Assembly: GCA_030524105.1 (NCBI GenBank)
Contig: JAUNHE010000007.1
Location: 62,001 to 126,000 of the forward strand
Length of the DNA stretch: 64,000 nt
Reading direction: 5' to 3'
Source of the DNA: Rothia sp. (in: high G+C Gram-positive bacteria)
Lineage (GTDB): Bacteria > Actinomycetota > Actinomycetes > Actinomycetales > Micrococcaceae
The position numbers and the translations under genes were made by a program. Below the pieces are notes generated by a model. It did no database searches. It was not told the DNA's origin and saw nothing but the letters and a program-made list of their open reading frames with translations. Below, one piece after another: positions 7,721-55,345 of this stretch. How positions within the stretch are numbered: position 1 is the stretch's first letter; each line of letters opens with the position of its first letter.

Positions 7721-7733
7721 TTAAGCTGGGCCC

Positions 7734-7762
7734 GGCCGGCAGAGCAGGCTCTGCTGCCGGCC
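7734..7762. terminator. GC-rich hairpin between convergent genes
   Basis: GGCCGGCA-GAGC and GCTC-(TGC bulge)-TGCCGGCC pair around a 2-nt AG apex. It lies between the convergent Tat protein and symporter genes and could terminate both. Confidence 0.5.
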
Positions 7763-7792
7763 AGCCTGCCGGGCTAGACCGGGCCGATTATT

Positions 7793-9223: not shown

Positions 9224-9485
9224 AGCCTTATTTTCTTGTGTGTAGACAGGTGCAACTAACCTTAGCTTATTTTGCCCTACGAGGTGGAAGATCTGTCTAG
9301 GACTGCCTGGGGTTGCTGCTGTTTAGCATAGATACAGGGGCTTTTGTAGGGAGCTTTGCTGGCCTTGTCTGCTCTTGCTGGGGTAGAGGGTTTGAAAATC
9401 TTTGGCAGCCTAGTACACAAAGAATAAGTTTTGTTGCATAGTAGGAAGCAGTTCTTATGAATTGAAACACAGCCCAGGAGTTGAG

Positions 9486-10577
9486 ATGCCAGCAGAAGAA
9501 CAAGCAGCCCAGCCTCAGCAGGAAGGCAGGAGTCCTTCTTTGTCGGAGCAGGCCCAGCGGGTTATGGGACAGGGTAGCGACGGCCAGCAAAGGGTGGGCC
9601 CTGTTGATGCAGCCCAGGTGCCCCGGTGGGCTGGTACCGCTACTTTTGCCCGCCTGCCTCGTCTGGATCAGGTAGAGCGGGCAGACATTGTGGTGGCGGG
9701 CATGCCCTGGGACTCTGGGGTTTCCTACCGGCCGGGTGCTCGATTTGCCAGTAATCAGGTGCGGGAGGCTTCCCGGCTACTGCGTCCCTTTAACCCGGCG
9801 GCTAATATTGCTCCTTTTAGTCAGGCTCAGGTGGCAGACGCCGGGGATATTATTGGCAACCCCTTTAAGATAGAGGATGCCCTGCTCATGTTGGAGGCGG
9901 GGGCTAGGGAACTTACTCAGACAGGTGCAAAGCTGATTAGCATCGGTGGTGATCACACTATTGCCCTGGCTAATCTACGCAATATGCATCGGCAGCACGG
10001 CAAAATTGCCCTGCTGCATTTTGATGCCCATTTGGATACCTGGGATACCTACTTTGGTGCAGAGTACACTCACGGTACTCCTTTCCGTCGTGCCTTTGAA
10101 GAGGACCTCCTGGATACCCAGGCACTGTGCCATGTTGGTACCCGCGGCCCGCTCTACGGTGCCCAAGATTTAGAGGATGACAAACGCTTTGGCTTTGGCA
10201 TTATTACCGCAGCAGATGTTTATTATCTTGGTGTTAGTCAGGTGATCCAGAAGCTGCGTCAGCGTATTGGCCGGCGGCCGCTCTATATCTCTATCGATAT
10301 TGATGTGCTGGACCCGGCCTTTGCCCCCGGAACCGGTACCCCAGAAGCGGGCGGGCTTAGCTCCCGGGAGCTTCTAGAGATTTTGCGGGGCCTGCGGGGG
10401 CTTAATCTGGTTGGCTCCGAGGTGGTAGAGGTTAGCCCAGCCTATGACCATGCGGATATTACCGCAATAGCAGCGGCCCACCTTATTTATGAACTGATCT
10501 GTCTTAAGGCAGCCGGGCAGCAGGCGGGACCAATCCAGCCTGCCAGCGGTATTGCCCCCATTCATTATGGCCAGTGA
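9486..10577 (+). CDS. Ureohydrolase: agmatinase/guanidinobutyrase-type
   Basis: 363 residues from ATG 9486, chosen because CAGGAG lies 5 nt upstream; a TTG at 9462 would add eight residues but overlaps that ribosome site. The arginase-fold dimanganese ligands are all present: GGDHT (His157), DAHLDTWD (Asp180, His182, Asp184) and SIDIDVLDP with two Asp. The family removes urea from a guanidino group. The [12 protein letters not shown] loop and [10 protein letters not shown] fit agmatinase or 4-guanidinobutyrase rather than arginase. The N-terminal roughly 45 residues are a low-complexity Gln/Glu-rich extension. It forms a two-gene operon with the aminotransferase (24-nt gap). Confidence 0.85.
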
Positions 10578-10601
10578 CCCCGGTTTAAGAGAGGAAAAAT
10601 T

Positions 10602-11852
10602 GTGGTAAAAATCCAAGAACTACTGGCAGGAGCTCATCCGGCTGAGGCCCGCATCATGGAGCATTTTGCTGAACGAGCTGCGGGCTTTCGTCCTTCTGCC
10701 GTCCGGGATGTTTTTGAAGTTGCTATGCGTCCGGGCATTATCTCCCTGGCCGGTGGTAACCCGGATTTGGACCTGCTGCCCTTACAAGAGCTGGGGCAGA
10801 TGTCAGCTGAGATCATTGCGGCAGAGGGCCTTGAGGTGCTTCAGTACGGTTCTGGTGCAGGTTTAGAGCCCTTGGCTGAGTTGGTGTGTCAGCTGATGAC
10901 AACAGAAGGTTCTGCCCCGCAGCTATCCCAGATTCAGATGACTGCCGGTTCTCAGATGGGCTTGGATCTGGCCTGCAAACTTTTTATCAATCCCGGCGAC
11001 GTTATTCTGGCTGAAGGCCCCACCTATACCGGTGCCTTAGGAACTTTTGAGGGTTACCAGGCCGATGTGCGGCAGGTGCAGCTAGATTCAGACGGGCTGG
11101 ACCCAGAAAAAGTGGCGAGCATGCTGGCTTCCTTGCGGGCAGCCGGTAAAACGGTTAAGTTCCTCTACACCATCCCCAATTTTCAAAATCCTACCGGGAT
11201 TAGCCTTTCACGCCGGCGCCGGGAAGAGCTGACAGCAGTCTGCCGGGACTTAAACCTGCTGATTGTTGAGGATAACCCTTACGGTCAGCTTTCCTTTACG
11301 GGTTCTTTGACGCCTTCGCTGCATTCTTTGGACCCGGATAACGTGATCTACCTGGGTAGTTTTTCTAAAATCTTTTCGCCAGGAGTTCGGGTTGGTTGGA
11401 TGGTTGCCCCGGAGAGGGTAAGAAAATTTTTACAGATAGCCGGTGAGGCCGTTACTATTTGCCCATCGGTTTTGTCCCAGCGGCTGGTCTTGGGTTTTAT
11501 GCAGGAAGGTTTATGGGAGGCTCATACTCAGGCTACGGCTAAACTGTATCAGCAGCGCTGCCAGGCTGTCTTGCAGGCCTGCCAGGATTATCTGCCGGCT
11601 GGAAGTAGCTGGACCAAACCTGAGGGTGGTTTCTTTACCTGGGTTAATCTGCCTGAGCAAAGCAGCTATGAGGACACGGCTCAGGTTTTAGGTCCGGCTA
11701 TTGAGAACGGAGTGGTTTTTGTGCCCGGCTCCGCCTTCTACGAGACCGCTGAGGGGGCCAACCCGGGTGCTAAGCAGCTGCGTATTGCCTTCTCTTCTGT
11801 TGAGCCGGATCAGCTCAGAGAAGGTGTAAGACGATTGGCGGAGGTGCTCTAA
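10602..11852 (+). CDS. PLP-dependent aminotransferase (fold type I, class I/II)
   Basis: 416 residues, GTG start with GAGAGG about 8 nt upstream. The fold-I signatures are TAGSQMGLDL, IPNFQNPTG, VEDNPYGQLSF with the pyridine-N Asp, and YLGSFSKIFSPGVRVGW, in which Lys256 should form the Schiff base. The N-terminal IISLAGGNPD matches the LysN/2-aminoadipate and MocR-catalytic-domain subgroup, which has broad 2-oxoacid specificity. It follows the ureohydrolase in one transcript. Given the TPP decarboxylase nearby it could transaminate arginine to 2-ketoarginine or recycle 4-aminobutyrate; that is inference. A GGGG/CCCC hairpin-like element with a TTTT run follows the stop. Confidence 0.85.
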   Translation: MVKIQELLAGAHPAEARIMEHFAERAAGFRPSAVRDVFEVAMRPGIISLAGGNPDLDLLPLQELGQMSAEIIAAEGLEVLQYGSGAGLEPLAELVCQLMTTEGSAPQLSQIQMTAGSQMGLDLACKLFINPGDVILAEGPTYTGALGTFEGYQADVRQVQLDSDGLDPEKVASMLASLRAAGKTVKFLYTIPNFQNPTGISLSRRRREELTAVCRDLNLLIVEDNPYGQLSFTGSLTPSLHSLDPDNVIYLGSFSKIFSPGVRVGWMVAPERVRKFLQIAGEAVTICPSVLSQRLVLGFMQEGLWEAHTQATAKLYQQRCQAVLQACQDYLPAGSSWTKPEGGFFTWVNLPEQSSYEDTAQVLGPAIENGVVFVPGSAFYETAEGANPGAKQLRIAFSSVEPDQLREGVRRLAEVL

Positions 11853-11876
11853 AACTGGGGTCTGAGCCGGCCCCTT

Positions 11877-12683
11877 TTAGAGCAGGCTCAGGTTGCGCTG
11901 GGCCCTGGCCTGTAGCAAAATTGCTGCCGCAACCGAGACGTTAAGAGAGTCAACGGCCGGGTTCATGGGAATGTGGGCGCTTTGCTGGCAGAGGGCCAGT
12001 CCTTCTGCCGAGAGCCCCTCTGTTTCGGACCCCATCAGTAGGGCCAGCGGTTCTTGATGCCGGCTCAGCTGGCTGATAGGCTGGTCGGCCCGGGCTGCTA
12101 AACCGACGGTTCTGAGGCCTTTCTCCTGTAAAAGATTGCTGACCTGCCCCCAGGTCATGAGGGCGTGAGGTAGGGAAAAGATGTAGCCGCGGCTGGCCCG
12201 GATCAGCCTGCGATCGGTAATGCTCTTGATGCCGCTTTCGACCAGGATCACACCACCGGCACCTAGGGCGTAGGCACTGCGGGCTATGGCACCAATATTG
12301 CCGGCAATACGCACACCGTCCAAGATGAGGAGGTCTCGCTGGAGGCCGGCAAAATCTTTAGCCCGCACCGGCGGGGGTGTTTTGGCGATACCAAAAATAT
12401 CGGGACGTTTATCGGAGCGGAAAAGCTCCTTAGTCAGCTCCGCACTAATAGGTTGTGGCTGGAGTCCAGCTTTCTGGCAGAGCTGCTGCAGCTCTGCCGG
12501 CAGGCTAAGGCCCTCGCTAAGATAGACACCCACAAAGTGTAGGCCAGCCTTCAGGGCCTGCAGCAGCGGGATGGGATCTTCAATCAGAGCTAGTTTTCCC
12601 GGAGACGAAGAGTGCTTAGCTAGATCCGAGATACGCTGGGCAGCGGGATGGGACTTTTGGCTGATAAGCATTTGATCGTTCAT
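11877..12683 (-). CDS. tsnR: TsnR/Tsr-type 23S rRNA (A1067-2'-O)-methyltransferase, SpoU/TrmH family
   Basis: 268 residues, essentially the length of thiostrepton-resistance methyltransferase Tsr (about 269). The N-terminal L30-like domain keeps the LIED...L and LF...K...FGIA pattern. The C-terminal SPOUT knot has LDGVRIAGNIGAIARSAYAL, SITDRRLIRASRGYIFSLP, GSETEGL and SLNVSVAAAILL, which match my recollection of the Tsr core nearly position by position and are more specific than general TrmH. Such enzymes methylate A1067 in the L11-binding GTPase centre and block thiostrepton, nosiheptide and other thiopeptides. No thiopeptide biosynthetic genes are nearby, so it would be self-protection against competitors or a housekeeping variant. 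A different 23S target cannot be excluded. Confidence 0.8.
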   Translation of the reverse strand: MNDQMLISQKSHPAAQRISDLAKHSSSPGKLALIEDPIPLLQALKAGLHFVGVYLSEGLSLPAELQQLCQKAGLQPQPISAELTKELFRSDKRPDIFGIAKTPPPVRAKDFAGLQRDLLILDGVRIAGNIGAIARSAYALGAGGVILVESGIKSITDRRLIRASRGYIFSLPHALMTWGQVSNLLQEKGLRTVGLAARADQPISQLSRHQEPLALLMGSETEGLSAEGLALCQQSAHIPMNPAVDSLNVSVAAAILLQARAQRNLSLL

Positions 12684-12844
12684 AGTGTCTCTCTTGGGGC
12701 CGGCGCCGCTGGCTTATGTTACAGAAAATACTACCCCAGGCCCGGCTAGCAGGAGTACACCGGGAATTAAGCAGTCTGGCCGGGTAGGGTTTACCTCAGG
12801 CAGCTATGCTGAGTAAAAGAAGACAGTAGAAGCAGGAGACAGGC

Positions 12845-13585
12845 GTGAACCGTCACATTATTGCCCATCGTGGGCTGAGCGCAATAGCACCAGAAAACAC
12901 CCTTGCCGCCTTAAAGCTCTGCCGTGACTACGGGGTCAGCTGGTTTGAGACCGATGTTGACATCATTGCCGACGGCACCCCGGTTGTCATCCACGACAGC
13001 CAACTTGACCGAACCACCAACAGCAGCGGATCCATCTACGAGTTAAGCAAAAAAGACCTGGCAGATATCGACGCCGGATCCTGGTTTTCTCCCGCCTATG
13101 CCGGCGAAAGGATTCCCACCTTAGCCCAGGTTATTGAGCTCATGAACACCCATAAGCTTAACGCCAACATCGAGATTAAATCGAATGAGCAGGGGGCAGA
13201 AAAAACCTACCAGCTTATTGACGCTGTTATTGCCCAATTGGATAAGCTCAACCCGGAACGACAGGTACTGGTGAGTTCCTTTAACCACCTGCTCCTTGCA
13301 GAGTTTAAGAGGAGAGCCCCACAGTATCAGCTTGCTGCCCTGATGAGCCAAGCCTGCCTCAGGCCAGACTGGCTTTCTGTGCTAGAACTCATCGGTGCAG
13401 CAGCTATCAATGTTGAAGACGGAGCCTTAACAGCAGAGCGCATTAAGCTGGCCAACCGGGCAGGCTACCCGGTCAACGCCTGGACGGTCAACAGCCGCCA
13501 GCGGGCCCAGCAGCTACTGGACTGGGGCGTCAACTCCGTGATTAGCGACCATGCCCACCAATTTATTGACTTAGAACAGCACTAA
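12845..13585 (+). CDS. ugpQ: Glycerophosphodiester phosphodiesterase
   Basis: 246 residues, GTG start with AGGAGA 6 nt upstream. IIAHRGLSAIAPENTLAAL gives the catalytic His and Glu-Asn, followed by ETDVDIIADGTPVVIHDSQL with the metal-binding Glu-Asp and the general-base His, and the C-terminal NAWTVNS segment. The length and lack of a signal peptide fit cytoplasmic UgpQ-type enzymes that release glycerol-3-phosphate and an alcohol from glycerophosphodiesters. A UgpAEBC-like importer lies about 30 kb downstream, so the two may act in the same phospholipid-headgroup salvage route. The symbol is by family resemblance. Confidence 0.85.
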   Translation: MNRHIIAHRGLSAIAPENTLAALKLCRDYGVSWFETDVDIIADGTPVVIHDSQLDRTTNSSGSIYELSKKDLADIDAGSWFSPAYAGERIPTLAQVIELMNTHKLNANIEIKSNEQGAEKTYQLIDAVIAQLDKLNPERQVLVSSFNHLLLAEFKRRAPQYQLAALMSQACLRPDWLSVLELIGAAAINVEDGALTAERIKLANRAGYPVNAWTVNSRQRAQQLLDWGVNSVISDHAHQFIDLEQH

Positions 13586-35191: not shown

Positions 35192-35854
35192 ATGATGAAG
35201 CCGCCTTCTGTTGTATGTAAAAACTTACACAAAGTAGCCGAAGCTAATGGAAGTAATATACTAAAGGAATGTAATTTAAACTTTTCCGGTAGTGGACTTG
35301 CTGCTATTGTAGGACCAAGCGGGGCAGGAAAAACTTCTTTGTTATACTGCTTAAGTGGTCTGGATATGCCAACCTCAGGAGAGGTTTATATAAATGAAAA
35401 AAATATTTATACTTACAATGAAAATCAGCGATCTAAATACCTTCGCGAAAATGTAAGTTTTATATTTCAAAATTACAATCTCTTGGACTATTTGACCGTA
35501 AAAGAAAACATACTTTTATCGCAAAAATTAGCACGACGCAACGTTTCAGAAAGAAAGCTAATTAGTTTCTTAAATAAATTTGGTATTTTTGAACTGTCAA
35601 ATAAAAAAGTTTCTCAGCTGTCTGGGGGAGAGCAGCAACGAGTTGCAATCTGTAGGGCAGTATTGCTTGAGCCCAGTGTTATATTTGCCGATGAGCCAAC
35701 CAGCGCTTTAGACAGTAAAAATTCTTCTATCGTTTTAAAGTATCTTAAAGATATTTCATTTAAAAATACTTTAGTATTTATGGTTACGCACGATATTCCG
35801 TCCGCATCTATTGCAGATAATTTAATCTTTATGAAGGATGGAAAAATTGTATAA
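35192..35854 (+). CDS. ABC transporter ATP-binding protein (LolD/MacB/BceA-like)
   Basis: 220 residues. Walker A GPSGAGKTS, Q-loop FIFQNYNLLDYLTV, signature LSGGEQQRVAICRA, Walker B VIFADEPTSALD and the switch His in MVTHD are all present. The subfamily partners FtsX-like permeases and typically exports or detoxifies peptides or lipoproteins. AAAAGGAA lies directly before the start (ATG 35192, or 35195). Its end overlaps the permease start by 17 bp. Strongly AT-rich, unlike the chromosome around it. Confidence 0.9.
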   Translation: MMKPPSVVCKNLHKVAEANGSNILKECNLNFSGSGLAAIVGPSGAGKTSLLYCLSGLDMPTSGEVYINEKNIYTYNENQRSKYLRENVSFIFQNYNLLDYLTVKENILLSQKLARRNVSERKLISFLNKFGIFELSNKKVSQLSGGEQQRVAICRAVLLEPSVIFADEPTSALDSKNSSIVLKYLKDISFKNTLVFMVTHDIPSASIADNLIFMKDGKIV

Positions 35855-37236
35855 GTATTCTTTACGAGTAGTGAATACTGACCTGTTGAATTGGACTCCG
35901 TTAATTGGGGTTGTATCGTTTATTTCTTTTCTTGTTGGAAATTGTGCTTATCAAATGATCTGGAGTCATTCTGCTGCCTTTGTAGAGGGGGTGGAAAGAC
36001 AGGGTTTAAACTCGAATGAATTTCATATAGTATCACAAACGATTTATTTTGTTGTTCTTTGTCTTGCTTTTTTCTCTCTGACTGTCGTTGGGAACTCTAC
36101 CGTTAAGAAAACGCAGTTTATTTTTGCCCAGTGGAAACTTTTAGGAGCTTCCCGTAAAGATGTAAGAAACTGTCTTCTTCTTATCATATTGTATATTTCT
36201 TTTTTGGGGTCTTTTTTTGGGAGGGGCTGCTTCTTTACTGTCTAGCTACTACGCTATTCCGATATTTAATAGGATGGCCGCCCAGGGCTTCGACCCGGGT
36301 ACCCATATAACCTTTCCTGCTTACTCACCCCAGTGGCTTGGATTTTTTCTAACCGTAGCACTGAGCGTTATTACCTGTTGTGTAAGTACTATTATTCCAA
36401 TTTATAGGTCAGGTAAAGTTCCCTCCTTGTTAGTATTAAAAAATATTTTGGAGGGAGGAGATAGTAGGATAGTAAAGATATCTAAATTAATATCGATAAT
36501 TTTTATAGTTTTTATATTGATAATTTTTCTTGTAAAAATTTCCTCGTCTTCAGCGGAAGAATTAAATGTTGAGGTGCTTTTTAATGCTTCCTTGCAGTCT
36601 GGAATTTTAACAGTTCTTGCAGTTCACTTTTCCACTACATTGATTTTATTTCCTCTGCTGGATTTTGCATCCAGGATTTTGTTCCGCCTAGGGAGAGTTA
36701 AGCTTGGGCTATCTATCCGATCGGTCAAACATAAGTTAGATATAAATTATTTTTCTTTAAATTGTTTATTTATTGGAATCTCAGGGTTCTGCATTATTTC
36801 TATAGTACTTAGCACTTCTCTGGAAGTTTTAAAAACATACGGTGTCTCCAGAATCAATTCTGTGGATACGGTATTACTGACTGCTCTGGTGTCAGTAACA
36901 TGTTTGGCCGTTAGTCTTGCTATCCTTGTTTTAAATACTTCTCTTATCAGAAGAGAGCAAGGATTACTGCGAGTATCTGGTTACACACCTGCTGAGGTTG
37001 TGCACTGGCATGCATTAAATAGTCTTATTTACTCGGGTCTTGCAACAGTCTTAGCCTTGCTGCCTATGGGGGTTACTTCATTTGTATCTAGTCTCATTGC
37101 GCAGAGGATAATTGGTAAAGTTTATATCTATTTTCCAATAAAGGAAATGTTGATTTCCTTTATGATTTGTTGGCTGGCGGTTTTTGCAACTAGTTTTATA
37201 TTTAACTTTAAGCATGTCAAAAACGGACCATGGTAG
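35838..37236 (+). pseudogene. FtsX-like ABC permease, frameshifted at a T7 run
   Basis: Two frames together make one permease of about 465 residues. Frame 1 (35838-36245) gives helices 1-3 and ends a few codons after the run; frame 2 (open through 36217-37236) carries on with GGAASLLSSYYAIP, about six more helices, and ends KNGPW. The join is at 36212-36218, seven T: with six T the reading becomes GSFLGGAASLL without interruption. The duplicated FtsX layout (two sets of helices with REQGLLRVSGYTPAEVV in the second) fits MacB/BceB-type exporters working with the preceding ATPase. Explanations: sequencing indel, slippage-based phase variation, transcriptional slippage, or decay. Confidence 0.7.
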
Positions 37237-37247
37237 ATGGGGAGGTA

Positions 37248-38014
37248 ATGAAGGTATGCAGAGAAGTTGAAATTGTGACTGGGATGAGATGTACGGCCAC
37301 TGCTTATTTTACAGGACCTGGTGAGAAAGGACTGTTGCCACACATTGATGAAGAAGAAGTCGTAATGGTTCAAGTAGCAGGTGCTAAAAAATGGGTCTAC
37401 TCACATACAGTGTACGATCATTTAGCAATACCCAGAACTATTGACGTAAAAGAATTATCTTCAGTTAAAGTTAATGAATACAATTTGGAAAGTGAAAATT
37501 TCCTTGCATTTCCTTCAGGGACTATACATGCAGGGAAACCGAGGATAATTATTCTATTCATATCACCTTTTCAGTTGAAAAAGACAGAAATGCAGAAAAA
37601 ATTAGTAAATTAATAAATTCCTCAAATAAATTAATTTTTAAAGATGTAAAATTCTTGAATCGAGATGAAATATCAACTAAAAAACTGCTAGAAGAATATA
37701 TCTCGTCTTTGCAAGAAGTTGACTTTTCTTCAATAGTAAACTGCGCAGAAAATCATATCCCAAGTGTTAGGGGCTGGTTTTTGATATCTAATAAAAAGGC
37801 AGCTATTAAATTTTCTAACACCTGTGAAATAAAGAAGGGTTCAGATGAGATTATCTTCCTTGGAAACGGAGGTTCTATAAAATTAGGAACAGATTTAGGT
37901 TATGAAATAGAAAATTTTATTCGCTCTGGTAGAGTTCAGATTGAAGATAAAAAAATACTTTACATTCTAATGAAAATGTTAAGCATCAATATTTTAGAGG
38001 TAAAAGATGCATAA
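37248..38014 (+). pseudogene. JmjC/cupin-4 family Fe(II)/2-oxoglutarate oxygenase, frameshifted
   Basis: Start ATG 37248 follows GGGGAGG; an ATG at 37230 overlapping the permease stop is an alternative. The first part has LLPHIDEEEVVMVQVAGAKKW with His-x-Asp iron ligands, and FLAFPSGTIHAG with the third His. The frame then goes wrong: adding one G to GGG at 37533-37535 restores HAGETEDNYSIHITFSVEKD and runs on through KLGTDLGYEIENFIRSGR, the winged-helix-like C-terminus of RoxA/MINA-type enzymes. Repaired length is about 255. It lacks roughly 80-90 N-terminal residues usual in the family. Relatives hydroxylate Arg or His in ribosomal proteins or peptides; the target here is unknown. Confidence 0.6.
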
Positions 38015-39239
38015 AAGTTTTCGTTTTCTATGGTCCGGAGAACTGCTCAGTTTTACATCAACTCAGTTTATTTTATTCTTATTGCCTGTAATAGCAATTT
38101 CATCTCTCAATCTTGAAAATTCAAGAATCGCTGCTATTAACGTTTTCACAGGTCTCGGAACCCTTGTTTTCCTTCTCCTGTTACAAAATCTAGGTGATTC
38201 TAAGAAGAAGATACTGATTCTCTCAACTTGTTCTTTGATCCGGGCACTTCTTTGTTTCTTGGCAAGCTATTTACTGTTTCAAGGAAACTTCAATATCTTC
38301 TTACTACTATCATTTTCTTTTATAATATCAGGAACTACTGTTTTTTATGACAGTTTATTCTCATCACTGATTCCTAGCGTGGTAGATAAAAGCCAGATTT
38401 CTCGAGCAAATAGGTGGTTTGCTAGTCTTCACTCGGTAGCAGACATAGCAGTTGGAGCCGCTGCTGGAGTTGCTTTTGAGTTTTTGGGTGAGCATACTCT
38501 GTTCATCATTTTTGCCTTGCTCTATATATTTTCTCTAATTGGCCCTATATCTGCTGTTAAAAACTACAAACTCACGGTATATACCAAAGAATCAGATTCG
38601 GAGGATAAATATTTAGGGTACTGGGCTGGTTTTAAGTACTTATTTAAGGATGGAATTCAACTTCCTCTTACTAAGAGCATTGTTTATTTCAATATTATTA
38701 CATCTGGAATTCAGGCAGTTTATATTATTTATTTACTCCGAAGTGCAAATATTTCAGTGCTTAACTTAGGCATTGCCAGCTCTTTGGGTGGTGTTTTGGG
38801 AATAATGTTTGCTTCTGTATTCGGGAGGAAAATAGATAATCTCAGGCCGTATTTTATATTGATACTAACTTTTTTGGTTCCAGGAATATCAGGTTTAGGT
38901 ATTTTTGTCTCGTATTACTTTAACGATACATTTTCAATTATTATTGTAGGAATTTCGCTTGCTCTATGGGCTAGTTCTATGATGATAAATATTTCAACTT
39001 CTGAGACTATAAAGCACCACTTCGTGCCAAATCATATATTGGGCAGGTTTTCTATGTCCCAGAGATTGTTAACTTGGGGCGCTGATCCTCTGGGGGCTAT
39101 CCTTGCGTCAATCCTTTTGATGTATCTGAATGTCAGTACAGTTTTTATTATATTTTTGTTTCTGACTTTCCTATCTCCTCTTTGGGTAATAGCATCAAAT
39201 GATATTAAAAAATTGCCAGTTTTATCCGAAATTTCTTGA
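38007..39239 (+). CDS. MFS transporter, macrolide-efflux (MefA/MFS_3)-like
   Basis: 410 residues with about 12 helices. The opening FRFLWSGELLSFTSTQF, the GTTVFYDSLFSSLIPSVVDKSQISRANRW loop and ASLHSVADIAVGAAAG match the MFS_3/Mef group, which includes drug and natural-product exporters in biosynthetic clusters. The ATG overlaps the end of the oxygenase gene by 8 bp, and GAGGTAAA lies upstream, so it is translationally coupled. AT-rich like the rest of the island. Substrate unknown; self-resistance or product export is a reasonable guess. Confidence 0.85.
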   Translation: MHKSFRFLWSGELLSFTSTQFILFLLPVIAISSLNLENSRIAAINVFTGLGTLVFLLLLQNLGDSKKKILILSTCSLIRALLCFLASYLLFQGNFNIFLLLSFSFIISGTTVFYDSLFSSLIPSVVDKSQISRANRWFASLHSVADIAVGAAAGVAFEFLGEHTLFIIFALLYIFSLIGPISAVKNYKLTVYTKESDSEDKYLGYWAGFKYLFKDGIQLPLTKSIVYFNIITSGIQAVYIIYLLRSANISVLNLGIASSLGGVLGIMFASVFGRKIDNLRPYFILILTFLVPGISGLGIFVSYYFNDTFSIIIVGISLALWASSMMINISTSETIKHHFVPNHILGRFSMSQRLLTWGADPLGAILASILLMYLNVSTVFIIFLFLTFLSPLWVIASNDIKKLPVLSEIS

Positions 39240-47321: not shown

Positions 47322-48992
47322 ATGCCCACCATCACCGCAGCCCGCGGCAAGACACTGCGCTGCGCCTCCTGGCGCACCGAAGCCCTCCTACGCCTGCTCG
47401 AAAACGTCCTGGAAATTGGTGAAAACCCCCAAGACCTGGTGGTGTATGCTTCCCTGGGCAAGGCCGCCAAAAACTGGCAAGCCTACCAGCAGATAGTGCA
47501 AGCCCTCACCAACCTCCAAGAAGACCAAACCCTGATCCTGCAAACAGGCCGGCCCGTAGCCGTCCTGCAAACCCACCCAGAAGCGCCCAAGGTTCTATCT
47601 GCCGTCAACAACACCGTAGGAAACTGGGCCACAGAAGAAAAATTTTATGAACGATACCGGCAGGGCAAAACCATCTGGGGTGGGCTCACCGCCGCCGCCT
47701 GGCAGTATATTGGCCGGCAAGGCGTCCTAGGCGGAACCTACGAACTGCTGCGGGCAGCCCTCAAGAAACACTTCCAGGAAGAGCAAGCCCCCCACCGCTG
47801 GCTACTGACAGCAGGACTAGGCGGTATGGGCTCAGCCCAGCCCATTAGCGCAAAAATGCTGGGCCTATCCTCTCTAACGGTAGAGGCCAACCCAGAAAAA
47901 ATCAGCAAACTCCGGCAAGCCGGCGGCCTGGATATCCTTGCAGACAACCTGGACCAGGCCCTCACCCTCATCCGGCAGGCCCAGGAAAAGAAAAGACCGC
48001 AGGCCATAGCCCTACAAGGCAACGCGGCAGACATCTTTGATCGGATTGCCGCAACAGAGACCGTTCCCGATCTGGTCACAGACCAAACCGCCGCCCACGA
48101 CGCCCGCTACGGCTACCTACCCCTGGGCTACACCATGCAGCGCTGGCAGCAAGAACAAGAAACCAACCCCCACAAGGTAGAAAAAGACGCCCGGGCAGCT
48201 ATGGCCCAACAGGTTGAAGCCATGATCCGCCTAACCCGCAAGGGAGCTATCGCCTTTGAAAACGGGAACAACCTGAGAGTACAAGCTTGCCAAGCCCTCA
48301 GCCCAGCAAGCAGCCAAGAAGCCTACCGGCGCATCCCCGGCTTCATGGAAGCCTACCTGCGTCCCCTCTTCAGCCGCGGTATTGGCCCCTTCCGCTGGAT
48401 TCTGCTTTCCGGAAGCACAGAAGACCAGAAAAAAGTAGACCAACTAGCCAGCAGCCTCTTTCCCCAGCGGCCAGAAATAGCGCACTGGATTCAACTTGCC
48501 CAGCAAAAAATCCCCAACCAAGGACTACCCGCTAGAACATGCTGGCTGGGGCACCGAGAACGCAGCACACTAGCCCTAGCCGTCAACCAGGCTGTTAGCC
48601 AGGGCAGCATCAGCGCCCCGGTAGCCTTCAGCCGCGACCACCTAGACTCAGCGGGCATGACCCATCCGCGCATTGGCACCGAAGGCATGTTAGACGACTC
48701 CGACGGCGTTAGCGACTGGCCTCTCCTCGATGCCATGCTCCTATCCAGTGCAGGGGCAGACCTGGTAGCCATCCACTCCGGTGGCGGCGGCTACAGCGGC
48801 TGGATGCAGTCAGCCGGGCTCACCGTCGTAGCAGACGGCAGCCAAGAAGCCGCCCGACGCATCAAACGGGCCCTAGACTACGACACCAGCCTAGGAATCA
48901 TCCGCCACGCAACGGCAGGGTACAGCGAGGCAGAACAGGCCCTGACAGAAGACCGGCAAAACCCGGCAGCTATTCATCACATCCGTAACTAA
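47322..48992 (+). CDS. Urocanase (HutU)-family hydratase, candidate (S-methyl-)thiourocanate hydratase
   Basis: 556 residues, the normal urocanase length. The NAD+-binding loop GLGGMGSAQP (165-174), DQTAAHD, GPFRWILLSG, the active-site Cys407 in GLPARTCWLG, SRDHLDSAGM and SDGVSDWPLLDAML are all recognisable. Several positions near the active site differ from canonical HutU as I know it: GGMGG becomes GGMGS, the DQTSAHDPLNGYLP loop becomes DQTAAHDARYGYLP, and the Gly-rich HHGGGVGMG...QHSG becomes HSGGGGYSG...QSAG. These changes and the neighbours (DUF917, MIO-less HAL homologue, OpuC importer) point to a thiourocanate-type substrate. Canonical urocanate hydratase is the alternative. First gene of the operon. 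Confidence 0.8.
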   Translation: MPTITAARGKTLRCASWRTEALLRLLENVLEIGENPQDLVVYASLGKAAKNWQAYQQIVQALTNLQEDQTLILQTGRPVAVLQTHPEAPKVLSAVNNTVGNWATEEKFYERYRQGKTIWGGLTAAAWQYIGRQGVLGGTYELLRAALKKHFQEEQAPHRWLLTAGLGGMGSAQPISAKMLGLSSLTVEANPEKISKLRQAGGLDILADNLDQALTLIRQAQEKKRPQAIALQGNAADIFDRIAATETVPDLVTDQTAAHDARYGYLPLGYTMQRWQQEQETNPHKVEKDARAAMAQQVEAMIRLTRKGAIAFENGNNLRVQACQALSPASSQEAYRRIPGFMEAYLRPLFSRGIGPFRWILLSGSTEDQKKVDQLASSLFPQRPEIAHWIQLAQQKIPNQGLPARTCWLGHRERSTLALAVNQAVSQGSISAPVAFSRDHLDSAGMTHPRIGTEGMLDDSDGVSDWPLLDAMLLSSAGADLVAIHSGGGGYSGWMQSAGLTVVADGSQEAARRIKRALDYDTSLGIIRHATAGYSEAEQALTEDRQNPAAIHHIRN

Positions 48993-49017
48993 ATCAAACA
49001 CAGAAAGGGCACACCTC

Positions 49018-50145
49018 ATGCGCCAACTTACCCCTGACGATGCCCGCTACGCCGTTCTAGGCGGAGGAGTCTTTGCCTGCGGTGGAGGAGGCTGGCAGCA
49101 TCACGGCCAGCTCATGGGCAGCCTTGCCACCCAACTAGAGACCCCGGTTTTGGTTAGCCCCGAAGAACTAGACCCCCAGACCTGGGTGGCAACAGTGACC
49201 GCCATCGGGGCACCGGCAGCCAAAGACTGGGAGATCCGGCCCAAGGATTACATCAGTGCCCTCAGCAAACTGATGGAAGTCTCAGACCATCCCATCGGAG
49301 CCGTCATGACCGGCCAAAACGGCTACTCCACCACCCTCAACGGTTGGATACAATCAGCAGCCCTGGGAGTTAAAGTACTCGATGCTGCCGGAGACGTCCG
49401 AGCCCACCCCACCGGAAAACTAGGCTCCTTAGGCTTAACCACCCGCCCCAACTATCAAACGATCCAGGTAGTTGCCGGCGGTAACCGAGAACAACACGGC
49501 CACCTCCTGTCGGTCAACTACGGCAGGGTTGATACCACCGACGACGTCCTGCGTGACATCTCTGTACGCGCCGGCGGTTTTATTGCAGCAGCACGTAACC
49601 CCGTAGAACTGGACTGGGTCAAAAACCACGCCGCACTAGGGGCAATCAGCCTTGCCCTGGACCTGGGCCAGGCCATGGAAGAAGCCGGGGCCGCACGCCT
49701 GGATCAAGGTCCGGCCGTCATCCAGGCCGTCCTAGACTTCCTAGAGGCAGAAGTGATAACCCAGGGCCCACTCCAGCACCGGGTCGCCCTAGAAACCCGG
49801 GGCGGCTGGGACCACGGCACCTTTGCTATTGGCGACTACAGCGTGCCCTACCTCAACGAATACATGGCCATTACCGGTCCCCAGGGACGGATAGCCACCT
49901 ACCCGGATACCATCTTTATCCTCGACCAAAAGAGCGGCCTACCCCTAGCCGTCAAAGACGCCAAACCCGGCATGGAGGTGCTGCTGGCTAAGGTAGCCGC
50001 CCACAAACTTCCGCTCTCATCCTCGGCCCTGGACCCAGTGGCACTGGCAGAATGCCAGGACATCATGGGAATAGACTTCCTCAGCTACCTGCCGCATCGT
50101 CAAAAATCCGCAGAAACAGCAGCAAACAATGGCCGCCCTCAATAA
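49018..50145 (+). CDS. DUF917 / S-methyl-thiohydantoin desulfurase-family protein
   Basis: 375 residues. The glycine-rich opening YAVLGGGVFACGGGGWQHHG, the long N-terminal alpha/beta domain and the C-terminal SVPYLNEYMAITGPQGRIATYPDTIFILDQKSG region match DUF917, now associated with S-methyl-thiohydantoin desulfurase. In that chemistry the thiohydantoin formed after a urocanase-type hydration is hydrolysed to hydantoin-propionate. Its position between the urocanase-like gene (25-nt gap) and the HAL-like gene (17-bp overlap) is where hutI would be expected in a histidine pathway, yet it is unrelated to imidazolonepropionase. Start ATG follows GAAAGGG. Function is inferred from family and context. 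Confidence 0.75.
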   Translation: MRQLTPDDARYAVLGGGVFACGGGGWQHHGQLMGSLATQLETPVLVSPEELDPQTWVATVTAIGAPAAKDWEIRPKDYISALSKLMEVSDHPIGAVMTGQNGYSTTLNGWIQSAALGVKVLDAAGDVRAHPTGKLGSLGLTTRPNYQTIQVVAGGNREQHGHLLSVNYGRVDTTDDVLRDISVRAGGFIAAARNPVELDWVKNHAALGAISLALDLGQAMEEAGAARLDQGPAVIQAVLDFLEAEVITQGPLQHRVALETRGGWDHGTFAIGDYSVPYLNEYMAITGPQGRIATYPDTIFILDQKSGLPLAVKDAKPGMEVLLAKVAAHKLPLSSSALDPVALAECQDIMGIDFLSYLPHRQKSAETAANNGRPQ

Positions 50146-51832
50146 CCAAGCTTGGGAGAACCCGCCCGGTGGGCAGAACCCCCTTAAACTGCCCGGAGTA
50201 AGCTCCATAGCACCTATACCCTTAGTCTTGGACGGCACCAGCCTCAGCTGGGCAGAACTAGAGCTAGTGCTCAGCCAAAAACCTATCCGGGTGAGCCTTT
50301 CCCAAGTAGCCAGCGCCCACATGCGCCGGGTGAGGCAGTGTGCGCTCAAGCAGCTAGAGCAGCAGCCGCTGCTGCGAGTATACGGCTGGAACCAAGGGCT
50401 GGGCCCGCTTAAAAACCATGAACTTAATCCAGCTGATCAAAAGCTCTTTCAGCTTAACGTTTTGCGCTCGCACCATGCCGGTGTAGGAAATTTTTTGCCG
50501 CCCCAGGTGGCCAGGCTGGCCTTGATCATACGGGCTAATAGCCTGGCGCGGGGCACAGCCGGGGTTAGGCCGGAGCTGGTGGAGAGGATGCTGGACTTTG
50601 TTAATGCGGGCATCCTCCCTTTGATGCCCGACACCGGATCTATGGGAACGGGAGATTTGCAGCCCATGGCCGCTGCAGGACTCTGCCTGGTTGGTGATGA
50701 TCAGGCCGATGTTTTGCATCCGGTGCAGGGTAGGCAGAGCGCCGGGCAGCTGTGTCGGATGCTTGGTCTTGGCGCCCGTTTTGAGCTGGAGGCCGGAGAA
50801 GCTGTTGGTTTGATTTCTGGGTCCGCGGTTCTTGCTGCCTCCCTGGCGGCTGCGGTCTATCGAATTGGCCGGCAGGCTAAGACCTTCTTGGGTGCCTTTG
50901 CCCTTTTTTGTGAGGCTTCAAGGGCTGAGAAGCAGGCCTTTGACTTACGCATGCATCGGGAACGGCATATTCCGGCTGAGGACGAGGCTGCCCGGTCAAT
51001 TCTGGCTTTGATTGGGGATTCGTACTGGAGTACAGCCCGGGGTAGGCGTCGGGCCGGGGAGAGCCAGCCACGGATTCAGGATGCTACGTCGGTTCGTTCG
51101 GTGCCGCACCAGTTGGCCACCTTGGAGCAGGAATTGGAGCGGGCCCGCCTGGAACTGGTGCGTGATGTCAATTCCTCAACCTGTAACCCTATTTTGCTGG
51201 CAGACGCCGACGGTGGCTTTGAATTTTTATCCGGGGGCAACTGGGATGGAACCATGCTGGGGCACGCGGCCCACTCTTTAAATGTTTGTATTACCCGCCT
51301 GGCCGTTCTCACCAAGGATTTGGGGGGCCGGCTTACCTACCAGGCCTGGAGTTATGGCTTGCCTCCCAGCCTTTCTGGCGGTCAGCTGGGCCTTAACTCC
51401 GGTTTGACCTTGTTGCACACTACCGGTGCTGCCCTAATCCCGGAGATGCAGGTGCGGGCTAACCCGGTGGGGACCTTGTCTTTTCCTATTAAAGGGGGCC
51501 AGGAGGACCATAACACCATGGCTATGGCGGCGGTGCATAACCTCCAATCTAACCTTGGGCGCCTTGACACCCTGCTTGCTATTTTGCTGCTGATGGCTGC
51601 CCAGGGCATTTATTTGCTGGAGGGGCAGATGGCCGGTTTAGCTATGGGAACCGGGTCCAGCCGGGTCTATGACTGTGTTCGTCAGCTTGTTCCACCAGTG
51701 GAGCAGGATCGGGCTCTGGTTGCTGATTTGGAGGTAGCTACGGAACTGGTGGCCTCGGGTAGGGTGGCTGCCACGGTGGTTGAGGCGCAGGAGGCCGGGA
51801 TGAGTGCCGGGGCGGGCATGTATTTTATTTAG
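50129..51832 (+). CDS. HAL-family lyase lacking the MIO triad, candidate ergothionase-type betaine lyase
   Basis: 567 residues with the full aromatic ammonia-lyase architecture: VYGWNQGLGPL (Tyr85), SHHAGVGNFLP, NSLARGTAGVRPELV, QDATSVRSVPHQ, RDVNSSTCNPILL and GGQEDHNTMAMAA. At the cofactor site HAL has GSVG-Ala-Ser-Gly-DLAPL; here residues 170-180 read GSMG-Thr-Gly-DLQPM, one residue shorter and without the Ser. The MIO group therefore cannot form. The HAL GGNFH substrate motif is GGNWD here. Ergothionases are known MIO-independent members that eliminate trimethylamine from ergothioneine, because the quaternary ammonium is already a good leaving group. Substrate could also be hercynine or S-methyl-ergothioneine. 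The start overlaps DUF917 by 17 bp. Confidence 0.75.
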   Translation: MAALNNQAWENPPGGQNPLKLPGVSSIAPIPLVLDGTSLSWAELELVLSQKPIRVSLSQVASAHMRRVRQCALKQLEQQPLLRVYGWNQGLGPLKNHELNPADQKLFQLNVLRSHHAGVGNFLPPQVARLALIIRANSLARGTAGVRPELVERMLDFVNAGILPLMPDTGSMGTGDLQPMAAAGLCLVGDDQADVLHPVQGRQSAGQLCRMLGLGARFELEAGEAVGLISGSAVLAASLAAAVYRIGRQAKTFLGAFALFCEASRAEKQAFDLRMHRERHIPAEDEAARSILALIGDSYWSTARGRRRAGESQPRIQDATSVRSVPHQLATLEQELERARLELVRDVNSSTCNPILLADADGGFEFLSGGNWDGTMLGHAAHSLNVCITRLAVLTKDLGGRLTYQAWSYGLPPSLSGGQLGLNSGLTLLHTTGAALIPEMQVRANPVGTLSFPIKGGQEDHNTMAMAAVHNLQSNLGRLDTLLAILLLMAAQGIYLLEGQMAGLAMGTGSSRVYDCVRQLVPPVEQDRALVADLEVATELVASGRVAATVVEAQEAGMSAGAGMYFI

Positions 51833-51934
51833 CCGGGTTGGCCCATCCCATGCTGTGGGCGACACGGCTTTTGTTCTTTATTAGTTTTAGCGACTAATCT
51901 TTCTATAAACAGACCGACGGTAAAGGAATCCCTA

Positions 51935-52999
51935 GTGGTAGACGGAAAACCGGCGATTGAGTTTTGCTCAGTCACCAAAAAATACGGCCAGCAGACCGTG
52001 GTTGCTGACCTTAACCTGGCCATTCCGCAGGGAAAGATTACGGTTTTTGTGGGGCCTTCTGGCTGCGGTAAGACAACGTCTTTACGCATGATTAACCGTA
52101 TGGTTGAGCCCAGCGGGGGGCAGATTTTTGTTAATGGCCGAGCTAATACGGATCTGCCAGCCTACGAGTTGCGCCGGCAGATGGGTTATGTTTTGCAGCA
52201 GGCTGGCCTGCTGCCCCATAAGACGATTGTGGATAACATTGCCACGGTACCGCTCTTACAGGGGGAGTCTAGGCGGCGTGCCCGGACCAGGGCTCTGGAG
52301 CTGATGGAGACCGTTGGTTTGGAGCAGTCTTTAGCTAAACGCTACCCGGCCCAGCTATCCGGTGGGCAGGCGCAGCGGGTAGGGGTGGCCAGGGCTTTAG
52401 CCTCTCATCCCAGCATTATTTTGATGGACGAGCCCTTCTCTGCGGTTGATCCACTGGTAAGGGTGGATCTGCAGCAGGAGATTTTGCGTTTGCAAAGCCA
52501 GCTTAATCGCAGCATTATTTTTGTTACCCACGATATGGATGAGGCTATTAAGCTGGGTGACCTTATTGCGGTTTTTGCCAGGGGCGGCAGAGTTGCCCAG
52601 TTTGCCAGCCCTGAGGAGATCTTGCGCCAGCCCGCTGACGATTTTGTGGCTGCTTTTGCCGGTAAGGACCGGGGTATGCGCCGTCTTTCCTTTGCAAGGG
52701 CGGATCAGCTGAAGATTTATCCACTGGATATGCAGCAGCCTCCTTGGCAGAAGTGGCGTTTGCAGGTGCAGGACGGCAAGCCCCTTGGCTGGTTGGTTGA
52801 TGGCAGGAGCATTCCCGGCGGTACCCTCTTTAGGCAGGGGTCTAGTTTGCGCGATGCCTTAGATTCGGTCCTGTCTTCCCCCTCGGGCTGGGGTGTGGCT
52901 GTTGACCGGGAGGGCAAGGTTTTGGGTTTGCTTAATTCGGATGATGTTTTGGATGCCACAGAGCGTGAGCGGTTAAACCGTTATGGGGTGAACACATGA
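51935..52999 (+). CDS. opuCA: OpuCA-type betaine/osmoprotectant ABC ATPase
   Basis: 354 residues, GTG start after AAAGGAA. Walker A GPSGCGKTT, LSGGQAQRVGVARAL, ILMDEPFSAVDPLVR, FVTHDMDEAIKLGD, and a C-terminal CBS-like region (about 265-354, GWGVAVDREGKVLGLLNSDDVL). The family imports glycine betaine, choline, carnitine and related trimethylammonium compounds; ergothioneine importers (EgtUV type) belong to it. It begins 102 bp after the HAL-like gene; a TATAAA and a TTAGT/ACTAA dyad in that gap could give a second promoter. It overlaps the next gene by 4 bp. Confidence 0.85.
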   Translation: MVDGKPAIEFCSVTKKYGQQTVVADLNLAIPQGKITVFVGPSGCGKTTSLRMINRMVEPSGGQIFVNGRANTDLPAYELRRQMGYVLQQAGLLPHKTIVDNIATVPLLQGESRRRARTRALELMETVGLEQSLAKRYPAQLSGGQAQRVGVARALASHPSIILMDEPFSAVDPLVRVDLQQEILRLQSQLNRSIIFVTHDMDEAIKLGDLIAVFARGGRVAQFASPEEILRQPADDFVAAFAGKDRGMRRLSFARADQLKIYPLDMQQPPWQKWRLQVQDGKPLGWLVDGRSIPGGTLFRQGSSLRDALDSVLSSPSGWGVAVDREGKVLGLLNSDDVLDATERERLNRYGVNT

Positions 53000-53670
53000 C
53001 CTGGTTTTTTGCTAACTGGCAGTATGTGGGCCAGCTGGCTGGCCTGCACCTGCTCCAGGCGCTTCTTCCGGTTCTTGCCGGTTTTTTGCTGGCCATACCC
53101 CTGGCCCGGCTGGCTTTGGGCAGACGGCGTGACGGTCTTGCCAGGCAGAAACAGAGCTTTGGGGGTGGGCTGCGCCGCAATGCGGTAGTTAATGCGGCAG
53201 CCTTGCTTTATACAGTTCCGTCTTTAGCCCTGTTTGTGCTGATGCCGCTGCTTTTGGGTACTTCTATCACTTCTGTTTTTAATGTCTATGTTGCTTTGAC
53301 CCTCTACGTGGTTGCCATGATGGTGCGCTCGGCGGTGGATGCTTTTGATTCGGTCTCTGCGGTGACTTTGGAGGCTGCTACGGCTATAGGCTACCGTCCG
53401 GTGCGGCGTTTTTGGGCCGTGGAGTTTCCGCTAGCTTTGCCGGTGATGCTGGCGGGCTTACGGGTGGCTTTGGTTTCTAATATTTCTATGGTTTCGGTGG
53501 GGGCTGTGATTGGTATCCAGTCTTTGGGCACCTTGTTTACCGATGGGCTGCGCCGGAACCTGCCGGCTGAAATTTTGGTGGGTATTACTGCAACGGTGCT
53601 TTTAGCCCTGGTTTTGGACCGGTTCCTGGGTGCCCTAGCCACCTTTGCCGGCCGCTGGAGGGCAGTGTAA
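52996..53670 (+). CDS. opuCB: OpuC-type permease 1
   Basis: 224 residues, about six helices. The LLYTVPSLALFVLMPLLLG segment and the ATPase-contact loop TLEAATAIGYRPVRRFWAVEFPLALP are typical of OpuCB/OpuCD. There is an unusual basic loop (RLALGRRRDGLARQKQ) after the first helix. It should pair with the permease at 53671. ATG overlaps the opuCA stop (ATGA). Confidence 0.85.
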   Translation: MTWFFANWQYVGQLAGLHLLQALLPVLAGFLLAIPLARLALGRRRDGLARQKQSFGGGLRRNAVVNAAALLYTVPSLALFVLMPLLLGTSITSVFNVYVALTLYVVAMMVRSAVDAFDSVSAVTLEAATAIGYRPVRRFWAVEFPLALPVMLAGLRVALVSNISMVSVGAVIGIQSLGTLFTDGLRRNLPAEILVGITATVLLALVLDRFLGALATFAGRWRAV

Positions 53671-54339
53671 ATGAATATTTTTGAGAAATTAACTGCCTGG
53701 TTTAGTGCCGGCAGCAGCTGGCTTGGCCCCGCTGGAATATGGCAGCGGCTGGCTGAGCATGTGGGCTATTCAGCCCTGATCTTGCTGCTGGCGGCTGCCC
53801 TTGCCCTGCCCCTAGGCTTATGGGTTGGCCATACTGGCCGCGGCCAGAATCTAGTACCGGCTTTGACGGGGGCGCTACGGTCTTTGCCCACCTTGGGTTT
53901 GCTGACTCTCTTTGCCCTGTGGCTGGGGCTGGGGCTCACGGCCCCGGTATTGGCCTTGGTGATCCTGGCTGTCGCTCCAATACTGGCTGCCACATACTCT
54001 GGGGTTGCTGCGGTGGATCCGGTAACGGTTGATGCTGCCCGGGCCCAGGGGATGACCGAATGGCAGGTGCTTTTTCGAGTGGAGCTTCCTCTGGCTGCTG
54101 CCCTTATTTTTGGTGGAATCCGTAATGCTACCTTGCAGGTTGTTGCTACGGTGACGGTGATGGCCTACATCAACCTGGGTGGTTTGGGCCGGTTTTTAAT
54201 TGATGGTTTGGCGGTGCGCGACTATGTTCGTATGGTTGCTGCCGTCATCTTGGTTGGTGGCTTGGCTCTGCTGCTGGACCTTTTTCTAGCTTTGCTCCAG
54301 CGTATTTTTGTTGTTTCTGCTCTTCGGGGGGATGGTTAA
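53671..54339 (+). CDS. opuCD: OpuC-type permease 2
   Basis: 222 residues, six helices. ALTGALRSLPTLGLLTLFALWLGLG and the loop TVDAARAQGMTEWQVLFRVELPLA are conserved in this family. It starts immediately after the first permease's stop codon. In EgtU of Streptococcus the permease and binding domain are fused; here the binding protein is a separate gene. Confidence 0.85.
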   Translation: MNIFEKLTAWFSAGSSWLGPAGIWQRLAEHVGYSALILLLAAALALPLGLWVGHTGRGQNLVPALTGALRSLPTLGLLTLFALWLGLGLTAPVLALVILAVAPILAATYSGVAAVDPVTVDAARAQGMTEWQVLFRVELPLAAALIFGGIRNATLQVVATVTVMAYINLGGLGRFLIDGLAVRDYVRMVAAVILVGGLALLLDLFLALLQRIFVVSALRGDG

Positions 54340-54341
54340 GG

Positions 54342-55262
54342 ATGCTACTGAGTCGTCGTCGAGTTTTGGCTGCCGCCGCTGCGGGGGCTGCTGCTAGCGG
54401 TTTATCCGCTTGTGGGCTTTCGGGTGAGACTGCTTTTGGTTCTGCTACTGCCTCTGACACGGTGCTGGTGGGTTCTGCCGATTTTACGGAGTCGCAGATT
54501 ATTGCTGAGGTCTATGTTGCGGCTTTAAAACAGCGGGGCTTTGCTGCCCAGAGCCAGCCTGCTATTGGTGCTCGGGAGGCTTTTATGGGGGCCCTGCGTG
54601 AGGGTAGTGTGGGGGTTGTCCCGGATTACACGGGTAATCTTTTGCTCTACTGCGATGGGCAGACGGATGCGGTAACCGACCAGCAGATTGTGGCTGCTTT
54701 AAAGAAGGCTTTGCCGCAGGAGCTTGCTTTACTGACTCCTGCTGCCGCTGAGAATAAGGATTCTATGGTGGTGACGGCTGAAACGGCGGAACGGTTTGGC
54801 CTGGTTTCTTTGGCTGACTGCTCTAAACATCAGGATCAGTTGGTTGTGGGTGCCCCTCCGGAGTTTGCTGAGCGTTCTTACGGATTGGCCGGCTTACGCC
54901 AGAAGTATGGTTTTGTTCCAGCCGGTTTTAGCCCTATTAATGATGGTGGGGGTCCTTTGACTTTGCAGGCCTTGTTGGATGGGGATATTCAGCTGGCTAA
55001 TTTGTTTTCGACGGATCCTGAGATTGATCGGCACGGCTTAGTGGTTTTGGAGGATCCGCGGCATAATTTTTTGGCGCAGCAGGTGGTGCCGGTGGTTAAT
55101 GCTCGGGGTGTTTCTTTGGGTGTTGCCCGGGTTTTGGATGAAGTTTCTGCTGTGCTGACTACTCAGGATTTGATTGCTTTTAATGGCAGGGTTTCCGGTG
55201 ATGAGAAGGCTAATGCGGCTACCGTGGCCCAGGAGTGGGTGCAGCAGAAGCTGGCTGCTTGA
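54342..55262 (+). CDS. opuCC: OpuCC-type substrate-binding lipoprotein
   Basis: 306 residues. A Tat-like SRRRVLAAAAAGAAA signal ends in lipobox LSAC (Cys24). The mature domain is OpuAC-like: VGSADFTESQIIAEVY, VPDYTGNLLLYC, GAPPEFAERSYGLAGL and LEDPRHNFLAQQVVPVV. OpuAC proteins hold quaternary ammonium groups in an aromatic cage. The betaine bound cannot be read from sequence; the neighbours suggest a histidine betaine. It starts 2 bp after the permease stop and is followed by a strong terminator, so it closes the operon. Confidence 0.85.
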   Translation: MLLSRRRVLAAAAAGAAASGLSACGLSGETAFGSATASDTVLVGSADFTESQIIAEVYVAALKQRGFAAQSQPAIGAREAFMGALREGSVGVVPDYTGNLLLYCDGQTDAVTDQQIVAALKKALPQELALLTPAAAENKDSMVVTAETAERFGLVSLADCSKHQDQLVVGAPPEFAERSYGLAGLRQKYGFVPAGFSPINDGGGPLTLQALLDGDIQLANLFSTDPEIDRHGLVVLEDPRHNFLAQQVVPVVNARGVSLGVARVLDEVSAVLTTQDLIAFNGRVSGDEKANAATVAQEWVQQKLAA

Positions 55263-55279
55263 TTGCTGCTTGCTAGAGC

Positions 55280-55322
55280 AGAGGCCGTGCGCTGGGACAA
55301 AGTCCGAAAGCGCACGGCCTCT
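55280..55322. terminator. Strong bidirectional terminator hairpin
   Basis: AGAGGCCGTGCGCT and AGCGCACGGCCTCT form a perfect 14-bp stem with a 15-nt loop that can pair further (GGAC/GTCC). It separates the convergent opuC and treB genes. Confidence 0.75.
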
Positions 55323-55345
55323 GGATAGGGTAAGGGACTAGGCGG

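Follow-up and report, generated by a model that had tools for sequence, protein, structure and literature searches.

What do a urocanase homologue, a DUF917 protein and a histidine ammonia-lyase (HAL)-like enzyme do together, directly in front of an importer of the OpuC type? The genes in question lie in a 64,000-nucleotide stretch of Rothia sp. DNA (contig JAUNHE010000007.1), which we will call the window, where positions 47322-55262 carry, all on the plus strand, a urocanase-like gene, a DUF917 gene, a HAL-like gene, an ATP-binding cassette (ABC) ATPase, two permeases and a binding protein (Table 1). Bacterial ergothioneine catabolism runs in five steps, catalysed in order by ergothionase, thiourocanate hydratase, thiohydantoin desulfurase, the hydantoinase ErtD and the carbamoylase ErtE. 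The three-gene block is probably a truncated ergothioneine-utilisation operon of this ert type, comprising the first three steps and with sulfur as the likely gain, and the importer a transporter of most of the genus that lies next door. The reading is built on gene content, on the sequence type of the enzymes, on the last two genes being missing by homology search, and on the importer's distribution and changed pocket; from these we infer the substrates, the products and the sulfur benefit. The lyase, which lacks the 4-methylideneimidazole-5-one (MIO) triad, would convert ergothioneine to thiourocanate and trimethylamine, the urocanase homologue would hydrate thiourocanate to thiohydantoin propionate, and the DUF917 protein would exchange the sulfur for oxygen, with hydantoin-5-propionate and sulfide as products. 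Since the predicted route stops at hydantoin-5-propionate, it would probably bring the cell reduced sulfur, and not carbon or glutamate.

The best NCBIfam match of the urocanase is thiourocanate hydratase (712.6 bits), followed by S-methyl thiourocanate hydratase (632) and hutU (595); for comparison, the urocanase of a Cohnella cluster scored 1039 bits with the thio model and a HutU from a congener 914 (hutU) against 674 (thio). The closest solved structure (596 bits; runner-up 533) is 7ned, which we take to be a thiourocanate hydratase although its entry title reads urocanate hydratase. Comparison of 10 HutU rows (8 different genes, 5 from congeners; L149 and L151, 14-residue stubs, were left out) with 11 urocanases from ert-type clusters, allowing one exception per group, gave 28 diagnostic columns. 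Of these, the window protein matches the thio group at 25, HutU at 2 and neither at 1, and the held-out 7ned matches the thio group at all 28. In the tree the window urocanase forms one clade (100/100) with those of congener G399, Pseudopropionibacterium massiliense (G451) and Nocardia, and this four-member clade joins two Acidimicrobial cluster urocanases (100/99), separate from HutU (100/100). Without a root, and with HutU joining the tree between two sets of cluster urocanases, the topology does not establish that the thio type arose once. Profiles, columns and tree together support a thiourocanate-hydratase type and not HutU.

The DUF917 protein is nearest to thiohydantoin desulfurase, which is its probable activity: the NCBIfam model for that enzyme gives 358 bits, against 241 for S-methyl thiohydantoin desulfurase. 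The same four members form a clade in its tree (100/99), with Acidimicrobial proteins nearest next by path. In the phylum sample the desulfurase model matched at any score in 18 of 396 genomes and in none above its cut-off. DUF917 proteins with no urocanase or lyase in the flanks examined were seen at two Streptomyces loci (L129, L130) and in G257 (L005), and perhaps reflect a different use of the family.

The lyase matches PF00221 (337.5 bits), and in place of the motif G-x-x-G-[AC]SG-D it reads GSMG-TGDLQP. The MIO triad is ASG or CSG in all nine HutH-type loci read, and it is one residue short at the same place in the window clade (-TG) and in the ergothionase of Treponema denticola (6s7j; -EG); the same shortening is found in 20 of 20 cluster lyases (window, G399 and 18 loci, of which L122, L123, L126, L127 and L128 were covered by motif reading only). 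The window lyase is 23% identical to the T. denticola enzyme and no supported clade unites them, and the NCBIfam scan of the window lyase matched no ergothionase model. Its own clade (51-68% identity internally) is 32% identical to an MIO-bearing lyase of G449 (L072). In all three lyase trees the window clade adjoins this L072 lyase (98/98, 88/88, 89/88), and the MIO-less lyases of other clusters separate from a grouping of HutH with the window clade (95/92, 100/100, 100/100). All three trees omit L125 (over-long frame) and L119 (lyase split over two frames); a long-branched lyase, L166, on the HutH side in the first tree, was omitted from the second and third, and the third adds 5 of 13 further HutH loci, the 8 on the minus strand being skipped. 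The clade is new, distant from the known ergothionase group and placed with MIO-bearing HutH lyases in the trees, and the window member is probably an ergothioneine trimethylamine-lyase of this divergent clade. The L072 locus itself (6943-13234) has an unfamiliar combination of genes, in which the HutH-like lyase is followed by an ErtD-like hydantoinase, a UbiD decarboxylase, an M20 hydantase and a UbiX-like protein, the M20 hydantase and the UbiX-like protein being named by eye.

Did the MIO group then disappear twice? The tree support just given would suggest so, but an approximately unbiased (AU) test did not reject a single MIO-less clade (p 0.28 and 0.34 in the second and third trees), and independent loss was dropped as a firm claim. 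The kinship of the three enzymes is also unlike: the nearest outside relatives of the urocanase and the DUF917 protein are Acidimicrobial cluster proteins and the lyase does not group with theirs, which suggests that the lyase may have been displaced within the cluster. A fuller version, in which an ergothionase with its own MIO loss displaced the known one in an actinobacterial cluster ending at desulfurisation, scavenging sulfur from ergothioneine with release of trimethylamine and sulfide, is at present a tentative idea. The initial annotation had placed the enzymes in the thio branch and not in the histidine-utilisation (hut) pathway, and the best model matches of urocanase and desulfurase, the 25 of 28 columns and the broken triad bear this out. 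In the profile comparison that it proposed, with grouping with HutH/HutU as the counter-case, urocanase and DUF917 protein are nearest the thio enzymes, the urocanase apart from HutU; the lyase scores better with a HutH structure and stands with HutH in the trees, although the AU values above leave room for one MIO-less clade.

The last two steps appear to be missing. With the Nocardia hydantoinase (ErtD) as query, the window's own genome yields only dihydroorotase (29%), the G399 genome nothing and P. massiliense one 27% match without annotation, and the controls (Nocardia, Cohnella) were positive. Neither the Nocardia carbamoylase (ErtE) query nor PF02538 found a match in these three genomes, and an M20 protein acting as carbamoylase in the own genome was rejected, all four being annotated as other enzymes (ArgE, DapE, a dipeptidase-like protein and a general amidohydrolase). 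The genome search for a hydantoinase and an N-carbamoyl-glutamate hydrolase suggested by the initial annotation thus found neither, and its proposed conversion en route to glutamate is not supported; hydantoin-5-propionate becomes the predicted endpoint, together with trimethylamine and sulfide. As had been claimed, HutI and HutF are not among the four PF01979 matches of the genome, which are urease alpha (by eye), dihydroorotase, a NagA-like protein (below cut-off) and a 360-aa protein without assignment. A search of the genome for lyase and urocanase homologues at E 0.001 returned the two cluster genes and no others, so no HutH or HutU was found. The sole NIR_SIR match is the nitrite reductase NirB; no sulfite reductase was found by this search, and sulfide from ergothioneine could therefore matter to the organism.

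Comparable clusters exist elsewhere. Scanning with the DUF917 alignment, which is not a census, returned at least 23 loci; within the DNA examined at each, a urocanase (whole or cut) was present at 21, a lyase, a hydantoinase and an M20 carbamoylase at 18 each, an MHS-type transporter at 11 and an OpuC-type binding protein at 4. The last, among the matches listed, are two Cohnella loci (L114, L116), a Carbobacillus metagenome-assembled genome (L115) and Bacillus FJAT-26390 (L118); L114 and L115 are almost the same (99% for lyase and for urocanase), so the Carbobacillus genome may carry a wrong label and the four loci amount to three. The combination of importer and degradation genes, which the initial annotation had thought a notable one, is thus not unique. 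Nocardia albiluteola has all five enzymes in a row (hydantoinase, urocanase, DUF917, carbamoylase, lyase), with 57% (lyase), 70% (urocanase) and 69% (DUF917) identity to the window, and the P. massiliense cluster consists of urocanase, DUF917 and lyase only. In one Cohnella cluster the urocanase, desulfurase and carbamoylase exceed the curated ert cut-offs, and the hydantoinase is best with the ErtD model, below its cut-off. The window thus resembles the five-step ert pathway in having the first three enzyme types side by side, with Nocardia homologues in a complete set, and differs from it in the two last enzymes, which were not found in this genome, in the clade of the lyase and in scores below the curated cut-offs.

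What is the role of the importer then? The initial annotation proposed a dedicated importer bringing in a histidine betaine, which the enzymes would carry towards glutamate, a view that we now regard as unlikely. The enzymes do adjoin the importer both in the window and in G399, and their remnants lie directly upstream of it in four further congeners, but the two parts differ in occurrence across the genus sample of 35 genomes. A near full-length orthologue of the binding protein (at least 48% identity) is present in 31 of the 35 congeners (the match in G427 has one internal stop), G402 has a broken one, and a thio-type urocanase plus window-type lyase is intact in 2, the own genome and G399. 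In G424, G425, G427 and G428 the stretch upstream of the ATPase gene contains lyase remnants, joined in G424 by one of a urocanase, and G402 has a weak, unassigned lyase match (24%, 45 bits) on the opposite strand. The order in G399 is urocanase, DUF917, MFS, lyase, and the scar in G424 retains it, with an MFS-like piece (by eye) between the urocanase and lyase pieces; the ATPase is 63-75% identical across the 13 congener loci aligned. The enzymes have been gained or lost across the genus and the importer mostly retained.

The pocket of the binding protein points the same way. The system has the OpuAC binding protein, ProV-like ATPase and two permeases of an OpuC-type importer, and EgtUC is the best solved relative of the binding protein as a single sequence (83 bits); with a profile of 12 orthologues Lmo1422 (115 bits) and EgtUC (113) lead, but the margin over other quaternary-amine binders, engineered choline-type sensors and ProX, is narrow (109, 108). 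The ergothioneine contacts of EgtUC given in PMC9732360 are F293, N339, Y341, Y419 and Y443, with K242 and G244 among further determinants. In the window protein the five contacts are Y, N, D, F and Q; reading the alignment by eye, K242 is replaced by A and G244 by F, while E375 and R379 are retained. Neither the EgtU aromatic cage nor the G244/K242 determinants are thus present. Asp for Y341 and Gln for Y443 are shared by all 13 genus orthologues aligned, out of 31 known. EgtU belongs to the same binding-protein superfamily, but the window has a separate binding protein and two permeases. EgtU-type specificity is thus unsupported, although ergothioneine may still be a ligand, and the importer is probably not dedicated to it, given its genus-wide occurrence and altered pocket. 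L168, the third OpuAC protein of the own genome, keeps Y, N, Y, F and Y at the cage positions and is a stronger candidate for the import of quaternary amines. In G399 an MHS-type transporter (L067, 4836-6152) sits between the DUF917 and lyase genes and is 36-47% identical to those in the clusters of Pseudomonas, Raoultella and acetic acid bacteria; it is a likely alternative ergothioneine transporter. A member of this family was rejected as the importer for the window, the in-cluster copy being in G399 and the own genome having only two relatives at 30-31%.

About as unlikely as the dedicated importer is a lyase that has diverged to use some other N-substituted thiohistidine, or has lost activity, in a block decaying as it has in congeners. 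The low identity to the ergothionase group, the block degraded in four congeners and the missing last two steps would all fit. However, all three reading frames are open and overlap or lie close together, family domains cover almost the full length of their products, the same lyase clade occurs within the complete Nocardia cluster, and loss of MIO would fit a trimethylamine leaving group. Less probable still is a truncated pathway for S-methyl-ergothioneine, since the curated models of the S-methyl branch also match but the thio models do so clearly better (713 against 632 and 358 against 241 bits). Among the substrates first proposed, ergothioneine is thus favoured and S-methyl-ergothioneine less likely, and hercynine is rejected, as it would leave a thiohydantoin-type desulfurase without a role. 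Ordinary hut genes are very improbable: lyase and urocanase are homologous to HutH and HutU, the lyase is on the HutH side of the trees and a curated cut-off would label the urocanase HutU, but the triad is broken, 25 of 28 columns are of thio type, a DUF917 gene stands in between and no HutI was found.

Several observations weigh against a truncated ergothioneine operon all the same. Urocanase and DUF917 protein both score below the curated cut-offs of their thio models (712.6 against 930 and 358 against 440 bits), and the urocanase passes that of hutU (595 against 375). Identity between the window lyase clade and the lyases of T. denticola, Cohnella, Pseudomonas and Raoultella is 21-29%, and among structure matches HutH (190 bits) precedes ergothionase (89). 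In congener G418 an MIO-less lyase homologue (L166) lies outside ert-type clusters, so that MIO loss is not confined to the ergothioneine pathway and by itself is no proof of activity. The sulfur benefit rests on a sulfite reductase missing from one genome, a ring-opening enzyme of another family would be missed by homology search, and the G399 genome is only 87% complete. Congener G412, without the three enzymes intact, has a neighbouring hydantoinase (33%) and carbamoylase (36% to the Nocardia pair) on contig 4, at about 67954-71783, which speaks against a genus-wide lack of the last two enzymes. The L166 gene (5485-6999; motif GGIG-TADLAAL, 23% identical to the window lyase) has a GntP permease and an FAD_binding_2 (fumarate-reductase-like) protein as neighbours, and matches of like size and score occur in G398, G401 and G085.

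The layout of the seven genes, their spacing and their families agree with the initial annotation. The urocanase-like and DUF917 genes are 25 nt apart, the DUF917 and HAL-like genes overlap by 17 bp and the HAL-like gene is followed by a 102-nt gap; the Pfam domains are Urocanase N/Rossmann/C, S-Me-THD N and C and Lyase_aromatic for the enzymes, and ABC_tran, two BPD_transp_1 and OpuAC for the importer. The single terminator claimed at the end is there as a strong hairpin (fold z -5.92 and -6.25 on the two strands; 0 of 200 shuffles equally stable), but no T-run follows it, and a weak terminator-like site at 51852-51868, between the lyase and ATPase genes (fold z -0.86; 36 of 200 shuffles equally stable), means that a single transcript for all seven genes is not established.

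Table 1. Coordinates of the enzyme block, the importer and the terminal hairpin in the window.
Feature	Coordinates	Strand	Evidence
Thiourocanate-hydratase-type urocanase homologue, 556 aa	47322..48992	+	profiles, structure match, diagnostic columns, tree
DUF917/S-Me-THD protein, probable thiohydantoin desulfurase, 375 aa	49018..50145	+	Pfam, NCBIfam, tree
MIO-less aromatic-lyase-family protein, probable ergothioneine trimethylamine-lyase, 567 aa	50129..51832	+	Pfam, motif, trees
OpuC/ProV-type ABC importer ATPase, GTG start	51935..52999	+	Pfam, NCBIfam
ABC importer permease 1	52996..53670	+	Pfam
ABC importer permease 2	53671..54339	+	Pfam
OpuAC-family lipoprotein-like binding protein, without EgtU-type quaternary-ammonium cage	54342..55262	+	Pfam, structure matches, residue alignment
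Strong hairpin without T-run, between convergent importer and phosphotransferase system (PTS) genes	55279..55323	not assigned	fold test

Upstream lie sugar ABC transporter genes (the ATPase by NCBIfam, the remainder named by eye) and downstream, on the opposite strand, PTS and glucosidase-like genes (named by eye); a plasmid search gave no match. Further away, at 35192-39239, the window has an AT-rich island, where GC is 35-40% in two 2-kb windows compared with about 55%. It contains an ABC ATPase, an FtsX-like permease (just below cut-off), a short JmjC_2 protein and an MFS gene, and resembles an island for peptide modification or export.

Titles and abstract openings on ergothionase, thiourocanate and thiohydantoin desulfurase, covering few subscription papers, contain no description of the window lyase clade or of a truncated cluster. 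According to PMC13405746, ergothionase occurs in a limited set of genera, a view based on BLAST with one known enzyme, and its authors caution about divergent homologues. Such single-enzyme searches would miss a lyase clade less than 30% identical to the known group, and by the curated cut-offs the thio-type urocanase of the window would be named HutU. If the truncated-operon reading is true, more bacteria than have been counted would degrade the dietary antioxidant ergothioneine to trimethylamine and sulfide, and some of them may use it for sulfur only.

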